NCBI GenBank assembly: GCA_017640615.1
Contig: JAEPQK010000005.1
Location: 62,001-126,000, forward strand
DNA from: Rhizobiaceae bacterium
Lineage (GTDB): Bacteria > Pseudomonadota > Alphaproteobacteria > Rhizobiales > Rhizobiaceae
Direction: 5' to 3'
Length of the DNA: 64,000 bases
Numbering within the stretch: the stretch's first letter is position 1; the number at the start of each line of letters is the position of its first letter. The notes beneath the pieces are model-generated. The model ran no database searches. It saw only the letters and a program-made list of their open reading frames with translations, and was not told where the DNA came from. This document shows, one piece after another, positions 46,495 through 52,366 of the stretch. A program made the position numbers and the translations under genes.

Positions 46495-48450
46495 GTGAGG
46501 GAGGAACCCTCAGGCTCGACTACATCGCACCCGGTCGCCAGGCGGTCGGGTGCGAGACTTACGCTCCGCCGCTTGGCACGGCCTGCCTCGGCCCGGCAGC
46601 CGCCGCCTGCGCCGGCGCAGGTATCGCCGGCGGAAACTGACCTCGCCTCGGAATTCGCGGTCTGGGAGCCAGTGTTGAGGGCGCTTCGCCTCTCAGATGA
46701 AATCATTGACGGCGTTGTCGGCCGCGCGCGTACCAACGGAACGTCGCTGCAGGCCGAATTGCTTGTTTCGAACCATTGCAGGGAGGTCGATTTCTTTCGC
46801 GCAGCCGCGGCGATTGCAGGCGTCCAGTTCGTGCCGGACATACGACCGAATTCGCTTGTGCTGCGAGAACTGGATGGTCTCGCCATCCTGCGCAGCGCAA
46901 AGGGACCGAGGCTGGTGCGCGCTCTTGGCGATGAGGGTGTCGGACTGGTTGTAGTTGCACCCGATGCCGCCAGCTTCCAGCGCATTCTTGCACGCAAGGC
47001 AAACGACCCTGCCGCTCTCGAGCGATTGCGCATAGCACCGCCTTCGGCACTGCGGGACGCTATCATCCAACGATGCGAACACCTAATCTGCGACCGCTCG
47101 AAAAGCCTGCTGCTGGACGCACTGCCTTATTGTTCGTCGCGCACGGTAATGACCGGTATTCAGGGCTTTGTTGCCGGCGGGTTGCTCGCCGCAACTGTCG
47201 CCGCGCTCGTGCTCGCCCCGAACTGGGCGATGTTCGGCCTGCATCTTTTTTTCACGCTCTTCTTCTGCGCCTGTATTTTCCTGCGTGTCGCGGCCGCAAG
47301 CCAGATCGACGCAGCCCGCCGCGTGGTTGCGCTCGGGCGCATCGATCCCGCGACATTGCCGCGCTACACGGTGCTGGTCGCGCTTCACCGCGAGGCTGAA
47401 ATCGTGCCGGAACTGCTGCGGGCGCTAAGCGCGCTGATGTGGCCGCGCAGCAAACTGGAAATCATGCTGGTTTGCGAGGCTGACGATAATGAAACGCTTG
47501 AGGCGCTTGCCGCTCACGATCTCAGGCCCTGGGTTGAAATCGTGCACGTGCCGCCCGGAAGACCGCGTACCAAGCCAAAGGCGCTGGCACACGCCCTACA
47601 GCTGGCGACCGGCGATTTCGTCGCGCTTTACGATGCCGAGGACAAACCGCACCCATTGCAGCTGATGGAGGCCTACCATCGTTTCCGTACGACGGATGAT
47701 GGCCTTGCCTGCGTTCAGGCTCCGCTTGAAATCTCCAACGGCGACCGCAGTCTCATCGCACGCCTCTTTGCCTTCGAATATTCAGCACTCTTTCGCGGCA
47801 TTCTGCCGTTTCTTTCCGACAACGGTCTGATCCTGCCACTTGGCGGTACCTCCAATCATTTCCGCAGAAACGCATTGGAGAAGATGGGCGGCTGGGACCC
47901 GTACAATGTCACAGAGGATGCAGACCTCGGCCTGCGTATGTGCCGCTTCGGCTACCGCACGGAGACCATCTGCTATCCGACCTATGAAGCCGCGCCCGAA
48001 AACTGGAAGGACTGGCGCAACCAGCGCACACGCTGGCTCAAGGGTTGGATCCAGACCTGGCTGGTGCATATGCGAAACCCAGGCCGGCTGGCCGGCGAAC
48101 TCGGCTGGCGCTCATTCGTGATCTCCCAAATCCTGTTCGCCGGAATGGTAATTTCCGCTCTCGTCCACCCGGTGCTTTTGGCGACGATTGCCTGGCTTGG
48201 CATCACCCTGATCGTCAATGGCAGCGGCTCGGTCCTGATGCCGGCGATTGTTGGCATCGACATGGCCAACATCCTGATGGGCTACGGTGCCTACATTCTG
48301 CTTGGCCGCACCACGCTGCCGCGCAGCAAGCGGCGCGGGCTCTGGATCGTTATTATGTGCACGCCGGCCTATTGGCTTATGCAGTCCTTCGCTGCCTGGC
48401 GCGCAATCTGGCAGCTCTGGCGCGATCCGCATTTATGCAGCATTATGTAG
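46495..48450 (+). CDS. membrane glycosyltransferase family 2 (cellulose-synthase-like), 3' end altered by transposon insertion
   Basis: 651 residues from a GTG start. Residues about 55-190 are a helical domain resembling the GspE/MshE N-terminal domain (LSDEIIDGVVGRARTNGTSLQ). Two transmembrane helices lie near 222-265, and the GT2 catalytic domain follows: D in LVCEADDNE, DxD-like LYDAEDKPH, TED in NVTEDADLGLRM and the processivity motif QRTRW. Several C-terminal helices follow. The gene runs into the left end of an IS1595-type element: the last codons HLCSIM-stop are partly transposon sequence. Without the insertion the frame would continue into LWEKTPHPATRR-stop (right remnant at 52325-52366). 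It probably makes an exopolysaccharide. Confidence 0.88.
   Translation: MREEPSGSTTSHPVARRSGARLTLRRLARPASARQPPPAPAQVSPAETDLASEFAVWEPVLRALRLSDEIIDGVVGRARTNGTSLQAELLVSNHCREVDFFRAAAAIAGVQFVPDIRPNSLVLRELDGLAILRSAKGPRLVRALGDEGVGLVVVAPDAASFQRILARKANDPAALERLRIAPPSALRDAIIQRCEHLICDRSKSLLLDALPYCSSRTVMTGIQGFVAGGLLAATVAALVLAPNWAMFGLHLFFTLFFCACIFLRVAAASQIDAARRVVALGRIDPATLPRYTVLVALHREAEIVPELLRALSALMWPRSKLEIMLVCEADDNETLEALAAHDLRPWVEIVHVPPGRPRTKPKALAHALQLATGDFVALYDAEDKPHPLQLMEAYHRFRTTDDGLACVQAPLEISNGDRSLIARLFAFEYSALFRGILPFLSDNGLILPLGGTSNHFRRNALEKMGGWDPYNVTEDADLGLRMCRFGYRTETICYPTYEAAPENWKDWRNQRTRWLKGWIQTWLVHMRNPGRLAGELGWRSFVISQILFAGMVISALVHPVLLATIAWLGITLIVNGSGSVLMPAIVGIDMANILMGYGAYILLGRTTLPRSKRRGLWIVIMCTPAYWLMQSFAAWRAIWQLWRDPHLCSIM
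48430..48437. repeat. left target-site duplication CATTTATG
   Basis: The 8 bp CATTTATG directly before the left inverted repeat is repeated exactly after the right inverted repeat at 52325-52332. Eight base pairs is the duplication length typical of IS1595-family insertions. Confidence 0.9.
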
Positions 48451-48462
48451 CAGTCACACCTA
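48438..48462 (+). repeat. left terminal inverted repeat
   Basis: Starts CAGCATTATGTAGCAGTCAC and is identical over 25 bp to the complement of 52300-52324. The stop codon of the interrupted glycosyltransferase (48448-48450) lies inside it. Confidence 0.92.
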
Positions 48463-48474
48463 AAATCATCTAGG

Positions 48475-48491
48475 CCAACGAATAGCGTTGG
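48475..48491. promoter_or_regulatory. operator copy 1 (CCAACG-N5-CGTTGG) before the cargo operon
   Basis: A perfect dyad CCAACG-AATAG-CGTTGG lies 14 bp upstream of the first cargo gene. Related dyads with the same spacing occur at 51148 and 51195 in the transposase/HTH promoter region, so the HTH protein of the element is the likely binder. Confidence 0.65.
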
Positions 48492-48505
48492 GGTAATTTG
48501 TCCCC

Positions 48506-48973
48506 ATGCCTCGCAAAGCCCACAACGTCAGCCGCCAGCGGACGCGCGGCAACGCAATCACCATCAACGGGCTTCTGACGTGGCGGGCGCGTCTGCTTCG
48601 CCGCCTGCGCAAGCGTGAGGGCGATACAGCATCTATAGAAGCCGATATTCAGGCCATAGACCGGGTGCTGGTGAACGTGATCGGCTTCACCGGCGACATA
48701 GAAACCCTCACCCGCGATTTCCGGCGCGAAGCCCTGTTCAAGCGCGGTGAGTTGCAGCGGCTAGTAATGGCCGTCCTTCGGGACGCAAACGAGCCGCTCA
48801 CCACGCGTCAAATCACCGAACGGGTTATGGACCGCAAGGGCGCGAGCATGACGCCGGGACGGGACAGCAAACAGCGCATTCACCGCGTCCGGGCGGTGTG
48901 CAAGCGGTTGGACGCTCAGGCAATGCTGAACGATGACGGGTTGCAATCTTGGGCTATGGACAATGCAACTTGA
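48506..48973 (+). CDS. transposon cargo protein with helical N-terminus and wHTH-like C-terminus
   Basis: 155 residues, not assignable to a named family. The first 25 residues are very basic (RKAHNVSRQRTRGNA). A charged helical segment with coiled-coil character follows (WRARLLRRLRKREGDTASIE). Residues 85-150 look like a winged helix: RGELQRLVMAVLRDANEPLT, then TRQITERVMDRK and RIHRVRAVCKRLDAQAML. The start ATG at 48506 lies just after a perfect operator dyad. The same domain order is seen in the protein at the other end of the element, which suggests a shared role in regulation or transposition. Confidence 0.7.
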   Translation: MPRKAHNVSRQRTRGNAITINGLLTWRARLLRRLRKREGDTASIEADIQAIDRVLVNVIGFTGDIETLTRDFRREALFKRGELQRLVMAVLRDANEPLTTRQITERVMDRKGASMTPGRDSKQRIHRVRAVCKRLDAQAMLNDDGLQSWAMDNAT

Positions 48974-49031
48974 CTTTTCGTGCGAATAACAAGAGAGGAG
49001 AGATGGGGAAACAGTAAAGCAGTCGCCAGCG

Positions 49032-50009
49032 ATGAATTTTGCCGATAGGCGAAAGCTCTATCAGAAGATAGAGGCGGAGCGGAATACCAAGTGTATTTCA
49101 TTCGTTACAGGTGAACGGGTCGGCCTACAAACTGTCATTGCCGGTGATGCGGTAGAGCCGTTTGTAAGCCTGCTGGACCAGATTGGCCCCGTCCCTAAGC
49201 TCTCACTTGTTCTCGATACGAACGGTGGCAGTACATCCGCGGCGTGGCGGCTGATCAACCTGTTTCGGTCATTTAGTGATGACTTCGAGGTGATAGTTCC
49301 CACGAAAGCGATGAGTGCTGGGACACTCATCGCGCTGGGGGCGAATCGAATTGTCATGACAAAGCAAGCCGCGCTTGGTCCGATTGATCCCAGCCTTTCG
49401 CAACATCCGTTGAACCCGTTCGTGGGCCCTCCAGTTGTACCGAGTGCACAAAGGGTTCCGGTGAGCGCCGAGGCTGTGCGGGGGTATTTAGAAGAGGTGC
49501 GGAAGCACATACAGGACCCCGCCGCGCTGGCAGCGGTTTGGACGCACCTTTCATCTCAGATTCATCCCATCGTACTTGGAGAGATTTTCCGGCTGGGTGA
49601 GCAGATTCGATCCATGGCCCGCACGCTCATTCAGGCGCAAGTTCAGGACGCCGATGCACAGGACAAGATAATCAACCTTCTGTGTTCCGATTCCGGCAGC
49701 CACGATTACACGATCAATCGTCGAAATGCCGCTGAAATTGGCCTGAACATCGAAAAGTGCTCCGCTGAACTTTACCCCACGTTAAGCGGCTTGATCAAAT
49801 CATACCACGGCGAGCTAAAGACGTTTGAGCCGTATTCCGCTTCGGATATCTTGGCAGGTCAGCCACAGGCAAGCTACACTTTGGTAAGAGGCCTGATCGA
49901 AGCTACTGACGCGGGGAGCTTCGGGTTCGTTTCAGAAGGCGAACTCATGGCCACGCAAGGGAACATTTCGGACAGCCGCAAGTTCGAGGGTTGGAGGAAA
50001 ATGCCATGA
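49032..50009 (+). CDS. SDH-family Clp-fold serine protease (transposon cargo)
   Basis: 325 residues of the SDH/SppA/ClpP-like crotonase-fold peptidase group (serine dehydrogenase proteinase family). Key features: LVLDTNGGSTSAAWRLINL (residues 59-77, oxyanion-type GG), TKAMSAGTLIALGANRIVM with the nucleophile Ser95 in the MSAGT motif, and AALGPIDPSL (113-122). No signal peptide or transmembrane helix is visible, unlike many SDH proteins, so it is probably cytosolic. The second half is helical and may bind a partner or substrate. A 70-codon ORF overlaps its stop (ATGA). Function in the element is unknown. Confidence 0.85.
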   Translation: MNFADRRKLYQKIEAERNTKCISFVTGERVGLQTVIAGDAVEPFVSLLDQIGPVPKLSLVLDTNGGSTSAAWRLINLFRSFSDDFEVIVPTKAMSAGTLIALGANRIVMTKQAALGPIDPSLSQHPLNPFVGPPVVPSAQRVPVSAEAVRGYLEEVRKHIQDPAALAAVWTHLSSQIHPIVLGEIFRLGEQIRSMARTLIQAQVQDADAQDKIINLLCSDSGSHDYTINRRNAAEIGLNIEKCSAELYPTLSGLIKSYHGELKTFEPYSASDILAGQPQASYTLVRGLIEATDAGSFGFVSEGELMATQGNISDSRKFEGWRKMP

Positions 50010-50218
50010 CGCATTCATCCGATGGAAGTGCGATCTACCGAGCAAGTTCTGCTGCGCCGCATGTGAGCACCGATAGGGCTGCGCCTGAGCGAGGCGTGGG
50101 CGAGAACACAAACCCATCGAATATCTTTCACGTGAACACTCGCTCCGCGGCAGCGCAGCCGACTGACTGGTTCCTTACTGGGCCGTCCTCTGCCAGTAAC
50201 CGGCCCACACGCGGCTGA
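50006..50218 (+). CDS. small ORF translationally coupled to the SDH protease
   Basis: 70 codons starting in an ATGA overlap with the protease stop. The product is Ser/Ala/Thr-rich (MTHSSDGSAIYRASSAAPHV at the start) with no recognisable domain, and its 3' third overlaps the converging transposase gene. The overlap is typical of real operon partners, but the composition is that of a possible chance ORF. Confidence 0.35.
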   Translation: MTHSSDGSAIYRASSAAPHVSTDRAAPERGVGENTNPSNIFHVNTRSAAAQPTDWFLTGPSSASNRPTRG

Positions 50219-51140
50219 CAGGATGATTGAGTGCGGCGTGGGTGGCAGTCAGGTATTGCTCACCATTGCTGCGGCGACGGTTGTCCTCGCGCCAAGCCAT
50301 TTCGGTCGCGTAAGCGGCAAGGTAGCGCCCGCTGATATGATGGTGCGTGCCGATCTCGGCGCGGCGCAATCTCGAGAAAAAGCTTTCCGCCATATTGGTT
50401 GACGCGCCGTCATGGGAATAGGCGTGCTGGTGATTGACGCGCTTGGTCAGGAACCGCATGTGCAGTTCATCCCAATGCGAGGCTTCATCCGCGTAGATCG
50501 TCGCGGAATGATCAACGCTGTTGGCGACGTGCGAAACCGACTGGCTCTCCGTTTTGAAAACGCCCGTTGACGTGCGGCCGCCACGTTCCCGCATGACGAC
50601 GACGACGCGCCGCTTGCCGGTCTGGTGGCGAGCAAGGCGACGGTCAACGCGGTTGGCCCTGTAGTTGGCGGGCCTGATGTGTCCACCGAAATAGGCGCCG
50701 TCCACCTCGACCTCGCCGGTCAGCCTTTCCTTGACCGTCTGCTCGGCTGCGATGGCCTCGCGGATTTTGTGGGCAAGGACGAAAGCGGTCTTGTACTGGC
50801 AGTCCAGGTCGCGGCTCAATTGAAGCGCGGCGTAGCCCTTCGCGCCATTCACGAAGATCGCGATAGCCAGCAGATAGTCCCTGACGGGCAATTTGCGATT
50901 GGCGAAAATCGTGCCCGAGGTAACGGAAAACTGCTTTTGGCAAGCCTTGCACTTGAAGATGCGGCGGGCCTTGAAAGTGTAGCAGGCGTCACGATCGCAG
51001 TAAGGACATACGGGCTTGCCGCCAGTCTCAGCCCAACGAATGGCCTGAAAGGCATTGTTAGCCTCTTCCTCGCTCATACGCGCAACCTTCGCCAGCGAGA
51101 GCGAGCGTGCTGCGGTTGAAAGGAGGAAATGCTGAGCCAT
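50175..51140 (-). CDS. IS1595 family transposase (ISXO2-like DDE domain)
   Basis: 321 residues from the ATG at 51140. An N-terminal zinc ribbon (Cys45, Cys48 in CPYCDRD; Cys64, Cys67 in FKCKACQKQF) is followed by an HTH-like segment and the DDE_Tnp_ISXO2 domain: Asp147 in EVEVDGAYFGG, Asp218 in IYADEASHWDEL and Glu252 in TNMAESFFSRLRR. The key residues are all present and the length is normal, so the enzyme is probably active. It is transcribed leftward from a promoter that overlaps two operator dyads. Confidence 0.93.
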   Translation of the reverse strand: MAQHFLLSTAARSLSLAKVARMSEEEANNAFQAIRWAETGGKPVCPYCDRDACYTFKARRIFKCKACQKQFSVTSGTIFANRKLPVRDYLLAIAIFVNGAKGYAALQLSRDLDCQYKTAFVLAHKIREAIAAEQTVKERLTGEVEVDGAYFGGHIRPANYRANRVDRRLARHQTGKRRVVVVMRERGGRTSTGVFKTESQSVSHVANSVDHSATIYADEASHWDELHMRFLTKRVNHQHAYSHDGASTNMAESFFSRLRRAEIGTHHHISGRYLAAYATEMAWREDNRRRSNGEQYLTATHAALNHPVSRVWAGYWQRTAQ

Positions 51141-51147
51141 CACCAAG

Positions 51148-51164
51148 CCAACGTTTATCGTTGA
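51148..51164. promoter_or_regulatory. operator copy 2 in the transposase/HTH promoter region
   Basis: CCAACG-TTTAT-CGTTGA, matching the perfect dyad at 48475 in 11 of 12 arm positions with the same 5-bp spacer. It lies 7 bp upstream of the transposase ATG, in its expected 5' untranslated region. Confidence 0.6.
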
Positions 51165-51169
51165 CCTCA

Positions 51170-51198
51170 GATATAATAGCTGAGATGGTTGGCGTCAA
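51170..51198 (-). promoter_or_regulatory. leftward transposase promoter
   Basis: On the minus strand TTGACG and TATATC are separated by exactly 17 bp. The -35 box overlaps operator copy 3 and the transcript would start near operator copy 2, an arrangement suited to repression. Confidence 0.55.
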
Positions 51199-51211
51199 CA
51201 CAAATCGTTGG
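51195..51211. promoter_or_regulatory. operator copy 3 between transposase and HTH genes
   Basis: TCAACA-CAAAT-CGTTGG keeps one perfect half-site and four of six bases of the other, with the same 5-bp spacing. It overlaps the leftward -35 box and ends 2 bp before the rightward TTGACA. Confidence 0.5.
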
Positions 51212-51213
51212 GA

Positions 51214-51242
51214 TTGACAAAAATAATTCAGACGACTATCGC
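51214..51242 (+). promoter_or_regulatory. rightward promoter of the HTH gene
   Basis: TTGACA followed after 17 bp by TATCGC, 7 bp before the HTH start codon. The -35 is consensus and the -10 is weak. The short distance would make the mRNA nearly leaderless, which fits the absence of a Shine-Dalgarno. Confidence 0.45.
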
Positions 51243-51249
51243 TCATTTC

Positions 51250-51462
51250 ATGACACCGGAACAATGTAGAGCCGCGCGCGGCTGGCTGGATAAATCGCAG
51301 ACGGAATTGGCCGAAGCGGCGAACGTGTCGCTATCGACGGTCCGCGATTTCGAAAAGCGCCGCCGCGTGCCTATCGGGAACAACTTAACCGCCATACGCG
51401 GGGCGCTTGAAAGAATGGGAATCGAGTTCACAGAAAACGGCATATCCGGGCCAGCCAAATAG
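51250..51462 (+). CDS. small HTH (XRE-type) transcriptional regulator of the transposon
   Basis: 70 residues, nearly all one helix-turn-helix domain: MTPEQCRAARGWLDKSQTEL, then AEAANVSLSTVRDFEKRRRVP. This short XRE family is common in Rhizobiales, often near mobile DNA. It is divergent from the transposase and shares a 110-bp region with two operator-like dyads, so it probably represses transposase, itself and the cargo operon at the left end. Confidence 0.87.
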   Translation: MTPEQCRAARGWLDKSQTELAEAANVSLSTVRDFEKRRRVPIGNNLTAIRGALERMGIEFTENGISGPAK

Positions 51463-51663
51463 GCCAGCCCGAATTGACGGAATCAGTCGATTCTGCTACG
51501 TAAAAGACTGGACCGACGGGGAGTCGGACCCCGCGCCCCCGGTGCAAACCCAAGGACGGAAACCACTTCCCGGCCCACAGGCGACCCGAGCGCCACTAAC
51601 GCCCGAGCCGCCATTCATGATGATGCTTTACCGTGTTGTCATGTACCACCTACCCGGACGGGC
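51463..51663. other. 201-bp non-coding segment of the transposon
   Basis: No credible gene is seen. On the minus strand it contains the tRNA-like fold listed separately at 51509-51576. The rest is GC-rich sequence with GCCC/GGGC runs and no ORF with a start signal. Confidence 0.5.
51509..51576 (-). ncRNA. tRNA-like fold, possible degenerate tRNA
   Basis: Read on the minus strand: GGGCCGG can pair with TCGGTCC as a 7-bp acceptor stem (two G-U pairs) followed by A; CGGGG-TCCGACT-CCCCG is a perfect T-arm with a 7-nt loop; CTTGG-GTTTGCA-CCGGG forms an anticodon-like arm with U33 and TTG at the anticodon place. The D-arm is short and irregular (68 nt overall instead of 73), so this is more likely a tRNA relic or mimic than a working tRNA. 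Confidence 0.35.
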
Positions 51664-52158
51664 TTAACCGCCTTGCGCTTCGGGACCAATGGCCGCTGAC
51701 TGATCCCGCACGGATAGCAAGTCAGTGGCCATATCTTTTTCGGGCAGCCGATATTCGGCCGAATCATCGTCCTTGATCAACTGCCCTCGTTTCCACATCC
51801 GCCAACAAATCGAGCTAACCGCTTCGCTGCGGACGTTCGGGTCCAGGTTGTCCTTAATGGAGTCCCTGATCTCCTTGGGCGTCAGCCCTCGCCGTCCAGT
51901 TCTATAAGACTGGCGCAGGGTGAAGCTTATCATGTCGGGGAGCGTGTAGCTCTTCTTGCTCTTTGAAGGCGTCTGCGCCGCCGGTTGGTTTGCCGAGCCA
52001 GCTTCCGGCCACTTTGCACCAGTCAGGCGCGCGACAACCCTTCCAGCCATATCAAGCTCGGCCAGCTCTTTATCGAGCTCCGCAAGCAGATCACGGGTCC
52101 GCGCAATCTCTTGCTCGACCTCGCGCCGCCGGGAAAGAATCAGATTCATCTCTTCCAT
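51664..52158 (-). CDS. transposon cargo protein with coiled coil and wHTH-like domain
   Basis: 164 residues from the ATG at 52158; a TTG 12 codons upstream is an alternative. Residues 1-45 form a strong coiled coil (ILSRRREVEQEIARTRDLLA). A low-complexity linker leads to a winged-helix-like region at about 85-150: MISFTLRQSYRTGRRGLTPK, EIRDSIKDNLDP, AVSSICWRMWKRGQLIKDDD and EYRLPEK, a layout used by DNA-binding plasmid and mobile-element proteins. Function unknown; similar in plan to the cargo protein at 48506. Confidence 0.65.
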   Translation of the reverse strand: MEEMNLILSRRREVEQEIARTRDLLAELDKELAELDMAGRVVARLTGAKWPEAGSANQPAAQTPSKSKKSYTLPDMISFTLRQSYRTGRRGLTPKEIRDSIKDNLDPNVRSEAVSSICWRMWKRGQLIKDDDSAEYRLPEKDMATDLLSVRDQSAAIGPEAQGG

Positions 52159-52299
52159 AACCCGCCTGTTAACCAAGCGGGACCGATTCCGCAAGCCCGA
52201 GAGATGGATTTCTTCACAGGCGCAATCACATCCCCGTGGGATGTTTCGGGAATCGAAACTTTCTGGTTTGTTCTCTCCCCGAGATTCACAGGCCGGGAC

Positions 52300-52324
52300 T
52301 AGGTGTGACTGCTACATAATGCTG
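52300..52324 (-). repeat. right terminal inverted repeat
   Basis: Exact complement of the left repeat over 25 bp; on the + strand it starts TAGGTGTGACTGCTACATAA and ends in GCTG at 52324. Confidence 0.92.
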
Positions 52325-52366
52325 CATTTATGGGAAAAGACCCCGCACCCCGCCACCCGCAGGTGA
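52325..52366 (+). pseudogene. severed 3' end of the glycosyltransferase gene with right target duplication
   Basis: CATTTATG (52325-52332) repeats the left target copy. Joined to the frame ending at 48437, the remaining 34 bp read GEKTPHPATRR-type codons (LWEKTPHPATRR after fusion) to a TGA at 52364-52366, 6 bp before the converging ppk2 stop. It is the original end of the gene at 46495. Confidence 0.85.

Follow-up and report, generated by a model that had tools for sequence, protein, structure and literature searches.

Small insertion sequence (IS) elements are usually regarded as consisting of a transposase alone. Within the IS1595 family, passenger-carrying forms termed transporter IS (tIS) are nevertheless known, and one of them, ISNha5, has a passenger transcription regulator, according to the accessible part of PMC11891212, which cites Siguier and colleagues 2009. 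The IS1595-type elements tISCpe8 and MTnSag1 have 25-bp inverted repeats and 8-bp duplications and are described as mobilizable in the available portion of PMC5704250, where the title of a cited work identifies tISCpe8 as a lincomycin-resistance element. Tn7-like transposons carry diverse cargo of toxin-antitoxin (TA) genes and defences against mobile genetic elements (PMC8649781, in extract). Here we describe a complete IS1595-family transposon of 3,887 bp, with both ends delimited, at positions 48438-52324 of a 64,000-nucleotide stretch of Rhizobiaceae DNA (contig JAEPQK010000005.1, positions 62,001 to 126,000), referred to below as the window. We conclude that it is a further form of the known passenger-carrying IS1595 tIS, with a candidate new module as cargo: an SDH-type serine protease and a tiny overlapping partner. 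Comparative sequence analysis leads us to favour, with moderate confidence, a self-regulated cargo transposon whose protease and small protein may act as a TA-like or abortive-infection device.

The boundaries of the transposon are well defined. Its terminal inverted repeats (25 bp each; 48438..48462 on the + strand and 52300..52324 on the - strand) are identical at 25/25 bases, and CATTTATG borders them on both sides (48430..48437 and 52325..52332) as an exact 8-bp target duplication, just as an initial annotation of this DNA had reported. By a rough estimate that assumes uniform bases, the chance of a perfect 25-bp inverted pair no more than 5 kb apart in 64 kb is about 3e-7. The G+C content is 57.3% inside the element and 62.7% outside. 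The insertion is clean. It interrupts a glycosyltransferase gene (46495-48450) and removes the last residues of its product, and joining the window flanks restores the C-terminus LWEKTPHPATRR. An empty site is found in a same-genus genome, where the glycosyltransferase (68.6% identity) directly adjoins PPK2 (88.4%) without the element; LWEKTPHP near the end of this glycosyltransferase is the C-terminus regained by joining the window flanks. The window's own genome assembly (10 contigs, 93% complete) contains one full copy of the transposon.

The transposase (50175..51146, - strand) was identified from Pfam, NCBIfam and alignment with relatives. It scored 142.1 bits against DDE_Tnp_IS1595 (PF12762; cut-off 27), 43.5 bits against Zn_ribbon_IS1595 (PF12760; cut-off 25.4) and 136.8 against NF033547 (cut-off 75); the sequences of its relatives suggest an ATG start near 51140. 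In an alignment with 33 relatives every sequence has D149, D220 and E254, and 33/34 sequences keep each of C47, C50, C66 and C69. We assign the three acidic residues as the probable DDE residues and the four cysteines as the probable ribbon residues, in agreement with the zinc ribbon and intact DDE residues claimed by the initial annotation. The element thus combines the DDE domain, zinc ribbon, terminal inverted repeats and 8-bp target duplication of the IS1595 family.

Searches with the transposase returned relatives at E ≤1e-60 in 24/297 genomes of the order, own genome included, and at E ≤1e-80 in 16/385 genomes of the class, probably Alphaproteobacteria to judge from plasmid hits; three of these 16 had also come up in the order search. 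All 42 further loci from these searches were examined for ends, and 32 had both ends and an 8/8 target duplication, giving 33 delimited elements (the window and 32 relatives) of 2.5 to 8.1 kb with the end consensus CGGnATTATGTAGCAAACGCACCAA. Complete ends with a target duplication were not found at the other 10/42 loci (L056, L065, L072, L082, L083, L102, L103, L104, L111 and L113); L083, whose inverted repeats lie at the ends of its contig, was included when genes were counted, so that those counts cover 34 elements. As the genome loci were picked by high transposase similarity, the sample leans towards the window's own kind. In one delimited element (L081, G006:C44; 3,259 bp) the transposase is split over two ORFs (open reading frames; 234 and 155 aa) between intact ends, and this copy may therefore be immobile.

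Gene content across the 34 elements showed a core that, judged by conservation, consists of the transposase, a divergent small regulator and, at the opposite end, a coiled-coil/winged-helix protein. The last of these, here called wHTH1 for its winged helix-turn-helix (wHTH) fold (48506..48973, + strand; 155 aa), was found by profile search in 34/34 elements, in L079 only as a 75-aa ORF. Its gene starts less than 100 bp from the left end and reads inward in 28/34 elements; in L060, L061, L076 and L079 it immediately follows the transposase gene and is read in the same direction. Across 121 genomes the wHTH1 profile gave 21 matches in 17, of which 8 were partial and 13 nearly full length; 12 of the latter lie in delimited elements and one (G057) lies beside a transposase relative for which no ends were found. 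The core profiles were run partly on their own training elements (11 for wHTH, 15 and 4 for the regulators). The small regulator is present in 33/34 elements, L114 alone having neither of its two types. Five elements (the window and L057-L060) have the XRE type, and 28 have a type that we presume to be DUF6471-like; our literature search found no paper containing 'DUF6471'. In the window the XRE-type regulator, a helix-turn-helix (HTH) protein (51250..51462, + strand), is 70 aa long from its ATG, or 84 aa from a TTG at 51208, and matches Pfam HTH_3 with 26.5 bits (cut-off 23). A sixth XRE match, from L070, is one member of a distinct RelE-like pair. The second coiled-coil/wHTH-like protein of the window (wHTH2; 51664..52194, - strand; 164 aa from an ATG at 52158) appears accessory, with a related ORF only in L063 and L079 among the relatives.

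Six plasmid relatives with named hosts, looked at after the genome sample, extend the range of forms. Four are cargo-free and carry transposase and wHTH1: Rhodovastum RHOApc (1,596 bp), Rhodovastum RHOApa (1,594 bp), Skermanella (1,688 bp) and Limimaricola (1,543 bp). A Tritonibacter plasmid has a bare IS of 1,132 bp with transposase alone, and Methylobacterium aquaticum has a cargo form of 4,803 bp with a 7/8 duplication. The five cargo-free and bare loci (L299, L300, L301, L303 and L304) may mark steps that lead from an IS to a cargo transposon. They also rule out the notion that bare copies do not exist, a notion to which the genome sample, with 33/33 complete elements of at least 2.5 kb, would lead. 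Because wHTH1 is present in 34/34 elements and is kept in the cargo-free forms, we consider it part of the transposon and not a passenger.

The same comparison showed two slots for exchangeable cargo, one from the wHTH gene to the transposase and the other from the regulator to the right end. Among 561 element pairs, 17 share any cargo ORF (non-core ORFs of at least 70 aa, BLASTP 1e-6), and at transposase identity of at least 65% the figure is 6/91. We scanned hand-picked ORFs of 19 elements with Pfam and PADLOC, and judged cargo by eye in L057, L063, L066, L068, L073 and nine class-level elements. Matches with a defence or TA flavour (restriction-modification, dCTP deaminase, Panacea, ImmA/IrrE, Fic or PDC) occurred in 9/19 scanned elements: a dCTP deaminase in L060 (E 5e-159), a cytosine methyltransferase in L061, type III restriction-modification in L080 (Mod E 3e-152), a methyltransferase with an Mrr-type domain in L079, Panacea in L058 and L074, ImmA/IrrE peptidases (Peptidase_M78) in L059 and L076, and PDC-M59A with Fic in L062. 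These matches support a regulatory, defensive or addictive flavour for the clade's cargo. The initial annotation had described a passenger-carrying IS1595 transposon with at least four non-transposase genes. All four are present as described, and the passenger status stands: 33 relatives have the same core without the protease ORF, and with the cargo-free forms this makes the passengers dispensable inside IS ends, the hallmark of a tIS.

Set beside the described systems, the element resembles ISNha5-like tIS in joining an IS1595 transposase to passenger genes; the window's clade differs from ISNha5, as far as the accessible text on the latter goes, in its wHTH core gene (34/34), its exchangeable regulator and its swapped defence and tRNA cargo. 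It shares repeat and duplication lengths with tISCpe8 and MTnSag1; no resistance gene was noticed in the clade cargo examined, no search having been aimed at resistance genes. In contrast to Tn7-like transposons, each unit of this clade has one IS1595 transposase and spans 2.5-8.1 kb.

The cargo gene that sets the window's element apart encodes a serine protease of the SDH type, with a ClpP/SppA fold (49032..50009, + strand; 325 aa), identified from Pfam, alignment and an AlphaFold model. It belongs to the Pfam family SDH_protease (PF01972; 64.7 bits, cut-off 31.3). Ser95 and other residues are invariant in 40/40 aligned sequences, 39 of which come from the 80 genome relatives introduced below. 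The model (pLDDT 89.7) is closest to the 1510-N stomatin-specific protease (Z 13.5, root-mean-square deviation 3.5-3.7 over 180-182 residues) and to ClpP (Z 13.2, 3.3 over 173 residues), two matches that the tool's own criterion does not separate; the comparison says little about the C-terminal part. Ser95 aligns with the SAGT serine of 1510-N, which is probably the Ser97 mutated in 6m4b, and the protease looks active. It differs from 1510-N and ClpP in its low identity (14-17%), in a predicted extra C-terminal beta-rich part and in the small ORF alongside.

Relatives of the protease are widespread. A scan of 84,980 species genomes gave matches in 107 stretches, 80 of which we analysed; the proteins are 40 to 66% identical to the window's (38 to 66% when viral loci are included), most of them nearly full length. 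By title the hosts include Proteobacteria, Firmicutes, Bacteroidota, Spirochaetes, Chloroflexi, archaeal bins and others. Some of these placements may be binning errors, as many are metagenome-assembled genomes and as L160 (Clostridia) shares its downstream ORF with L161 (Methanobrevibacter). An alignment-based search recovered 60 viral loci, none of which was found in a search with the single protease sequence. In five viral contigs (L227, L229, L230, L234 and L252) no more than about 520 bases separate the protease from the contig end, a placement that accessory genes near prophage ends may show. A phage-like E. coli record annotated as a plasmid has a full-length, 43%-identical protease between antiterminator Q and holin (L024:7998-8993), followed by a 59-aa ORF, and this protease gene occurs in 47/5,426 E. 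coli genomes. The protease exists independently of the IS1595 transposon: only L194 among the 80 genome loci has an IS1595-like transposase (27% identity) in its stretch, and no wHTH1, XRE or wHTH2 relative was found in any of the 80.

A small ORF that the initial annotation had left unnamed (50006-50218, + strand; 70 aa) follows the protease, its ATGA start overlapping the protease stop, and is a putative partner. An ORF of at least 38 aa begins near the protease stop in 78/82 loci (the 80 genome loci, the window and the E. coli record), a count that means little alone. A partner profile built from 22 training sequences gave 42 matches at E <0.01 among the 6,206 ORFs of these 82 loci, and all 20 matches unseen in training lie at the protease 3' end; the seeds were hand-picked and aligned together with four sequences later left out of training. 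In four random half-splits every unseen match (28, 23, 25 and 25) was likewise at the protease 3' end. A second profile, built on the 42 matches, then hit 27 of 4,192 ORFs in the viral loci, some of which are near-identical, again with 27/27 at the protease 3' end. By eye, the partners have a polar Ser/Thr-rich start and a T-S-A-like motif, followed by approximately S-L-x2-I-I-K-N-x2-I-I, and the window small ORF has a start (MEE..MTHSSDGSAIYRASSAAP) common to L115 and L225. We regard the protease and downstream small ORF as a better candidate for a module than the four-gene set put forward by the initial annotation.

A different gene takes the downstream position in part of the family. In 16/80 protease loci, mostly Firmicutes by title, the next gene encodes a Panacea-type protein of 194-205 aa (identity checked with Pfam in one locus, L163), and 14 of the 16 have a further ORF of 104-130 aa. 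L163:6992-7932 and 15 similar loci may represent a three-gene system of protease, Panacea-type protein and, in 14/16, the third ORF. These loci, together with the sibling elements L058 and L074 that carry Panacea, recall PanAT, in which the partner has a Panacea domain; the window small ORF (50006-50215) differs in having no Pfam match.

These features make a TA-like or anti-phage role likely for the window's cargo, as judged from gene layout and neighbourhood. We propose that the SDH protease would be a toxic or phage-triggered effector and that the overlapping Ser/Thr-rich protein would neutralise or regulate it, perhaps as a pseudo-substrate. The pair could then favour the transposon and its host lineage in the manner of TA or abortive-infection systems. 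The roles might also be reversed, with the small ORF as the effector (a pro-toxin or substrate) and the protease either activating it or serving as its antitoxin, in the manner of immune systems that a protease activates; the overlapping two-gene layout is silent on which partner is the toxin. We think this arrangement fairly unlikely, given that the small proteins are polar and Ser/Thr-rich by eye, that neither of the two scanned had a Pfam match, and that it is the antitoxin-type Panacea family that forms the next gene in the 16 loci described above.

The remainder of the proposed mechanism concerns control of the transposon. An operator-like palindrome, CCAACG-N5-CGTTGG, stands without mismatch before the left wHTH gene (48475..48491), and two further copies lie 47 bp apart in the transposase/XRE intergenic region, one with 1 mismatch (51148..51164) and one with 2 (51195..51211). 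Among the five XRE-type elements, a perfect copy between the left end and wHTH1 occurs in the window and L059, and the pair spaced by 47 bp (0 to 3 mismatches) in the window, L058 and L059. At up to 2 mismatches the whole window holds 5 palindromes against 4.1 expected, so loose matches alone prove nothing; what speaks for operators is the perfect copy, where the copies lie and the spacing kept between them. At the same places no palindrome with up to 2 mismatches occurs in elements that have the DUF6471-like regulator, and a promoter scan found nothing above chance. The data support a predicted control by the XRE protein of its own, the transposase and the wHTH1 promoters: it would bind the palindrome at the shared own/transposase promoter and at the wHTH promoter, and in doing so repress transposition. 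The wHTH1 protein may assist the transposase at the ends or tune it. Self-regulation, as the initial annotation had it, is thus plausible from the operators of three XRE-type elements and lacks that backing in the other two, considered below.

The protease could instead belong to this control circuit, acting as an inducer: under stress it would cut the XRE or wHTH regulator and thereby free transposition. The described cleavage of ImmR by ImmA (PMC10440598, in part) provides a precedent, and two sibling elements have ImmA/IrrE-type peptidases. We regard this as distinctly unlikely: the protease is absent from elements with the same regulator type, and among the 80 genome loci it has an IS1595-like transposase nearby only in L194. 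A cargo that is a neutral hitch-hiker without selected function is less probable still. The single copy and the fast cargo turnover would fit it, against which stand the intact ORF, the invariance of Ser95 and other residues in 40/40 sequences, and the recurrence of a small partner next to the protease. Least credible, and as good as ruled out, is the initial annotation's proposal of a single functional cargo module made up of the protease, the HTH regulator and both wHTH proteins: all lie inside one element, but wHTH1 (34/34) and the regulator (33/34) are core and accompany any cargo, wHTH1 is kept without cargo, the 80 protease loci have no relative of wHTH1, XRE or wHTH2, and the check which that annotation proposed, comparing gene content between copies, found different cargo within the same ends to be the rule (protease in 0/33 relatives), with four plasmid elements consisting of transposase and wHTH1 and one of a bare IS, so that the module fails because the cargo is missing in most copies, a condition named in the annotation itself. 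Its further suggestion of a regulatory, defensive or addictive cargo survives as the flavour of the clade (9/19) and not for the four genes as a set.

Several observations weigh against the favoured reading of a self-regulated transposon with a TA-like or abortive-infection device. None of the 33 transposon relatives carries the protease, so its tie to the IS1595 transposon is a single case. The protease scores below the NCBIfam equivalog NF047768 Clp_like_SDH (84.4 bits against 250), and it matched 0 families among the PADLOC-DB 2.0 defence models at E up to 1. The window small ORF is the top ORF of its locus against the partner profile, with an E of 2.2 that is not significant; 33/60 viral loci have no partner match; and 24/82 loci, the window and the E. 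coli record included, have neither a partner match (E <0.01) nor a Panacea-type gene. The Panacea leader resembles the small partner by eye only, without a significant match. As to the operators, the XRE-type element L057 has no palindrome and L060 a single copy with 3 mismatches in the gap. In the cargo scan, five of the 19 elements gave only KilA-N, Bro-N, AAA, DUF or sub-threshold RelE matches (KilA-N or Bro-N in L064, L078 and L071, with DUF6731 also in L064 and a 'putative phage structural protein' match also in L071; an AAA ATPase in L077; sub-threshold RelE beside an HTH gene in L070), and another five (L067, L069, L075, L081 and L083) showed nothing of note. The neighbourhood of the protease counts in favour of the reading: 82 proteins encoded beside the protease match 207 PADLOC families at E <1e-20, against 4 families, one member each, for 81 control proteins flanking the transposons, a contrast that is indicative only, as families overlap, the figure counts families and not matching proteins, and the control taxa differ from most protease loci. 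The neighbour set comprised 82 of 140 neighbour ORFs, from 45/80 loci; among the 25 neighbour families shown were type IIG (3 members) and type II methyltransferase, type I specificity, HKD+SNF2 and mads_5 (2 members each).

Some cargo of the clade consists of tRNA genes. The window itself has a degenerate tRNA-like cloverleaf without a proper D-arm (51510..51576, - strand), also unnamed in the initial annotation; it is possibly decayed cargo and doubtful, as ARAGORN calls no tRNA there at default, only at a lowered threshold, and the fold is no more stable than shuffles (z -0.69). Two relatives, L068 (L039:1065-1181, + strand) and L106 (L092:1268-1382, - strand), have tRNA genes with a long variable arm in the left cargo slot, which score 58.5 and 61.2 bits against Rfam tRNA (cut-off 29). 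Short matches to them elsewhere in both genomes fall in tRNA-Ser genes at 8/8 ARAGORN-called loci. We read the anticodon loop CTTTAAA of the L068 tRNA as UUA, which would read the UAA stop, and TTCCTAA of the L106 tRNA as CCU (Arg AGG), applying tRNA identity rules that we take to hold here. At default settings ARAGORN makes no call for either; once introns are permitted it gives Leu(taa) and Arg(cct). We searched for a readthrough gene to match the L068 tRNA and found none. The left slots of L107 (639-714) and L108 (735-807, complement) hold a tRNA-Thr(UGU) and a tRNA with anticodon CGC, respectively. Genes resembling allo-tRNAs have been suspected to accompany transposable elements or TA systems (review PMC7609411, in extract). 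The right slots of L069, L073, L076, L077, L078, L108, L109 and L110 encode a protein of 280-370 aa that has a membrane segment and, by eye, a RAYxxV...N-x-G-x-x-P-A-like pattern; the two that were scanned gave no Pfam match above cut-off.

Our literature search, which reached few subscription papers, found no description of the clade core or of the protease-partner module, and 'SDH' has 0 occurrences in the main texts of PMC8832971 and PMC10440598 by term search. More tentatively than for the window's element itself, we suggest that the SDH protease and its tiny overlapping partner might form an undescribed, cross-phylum protease-based TA or anti-phage system, for which IS1595 cargo transposons would be one vehicle, as part of a general role in shuttling small defence modules and recoded tRNAs. 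The IS1595 clade described here has a core (wHTH gene, regulator and, in some elements, operators) and two slots of changing defence, TA and tRNA genes, and its units offer a compact, easily delimited place to seek new systems. Among these, the protease and its small partner are a concrete candidate, with a recurrent layout, 107 genome stretches and 60 viral loci.

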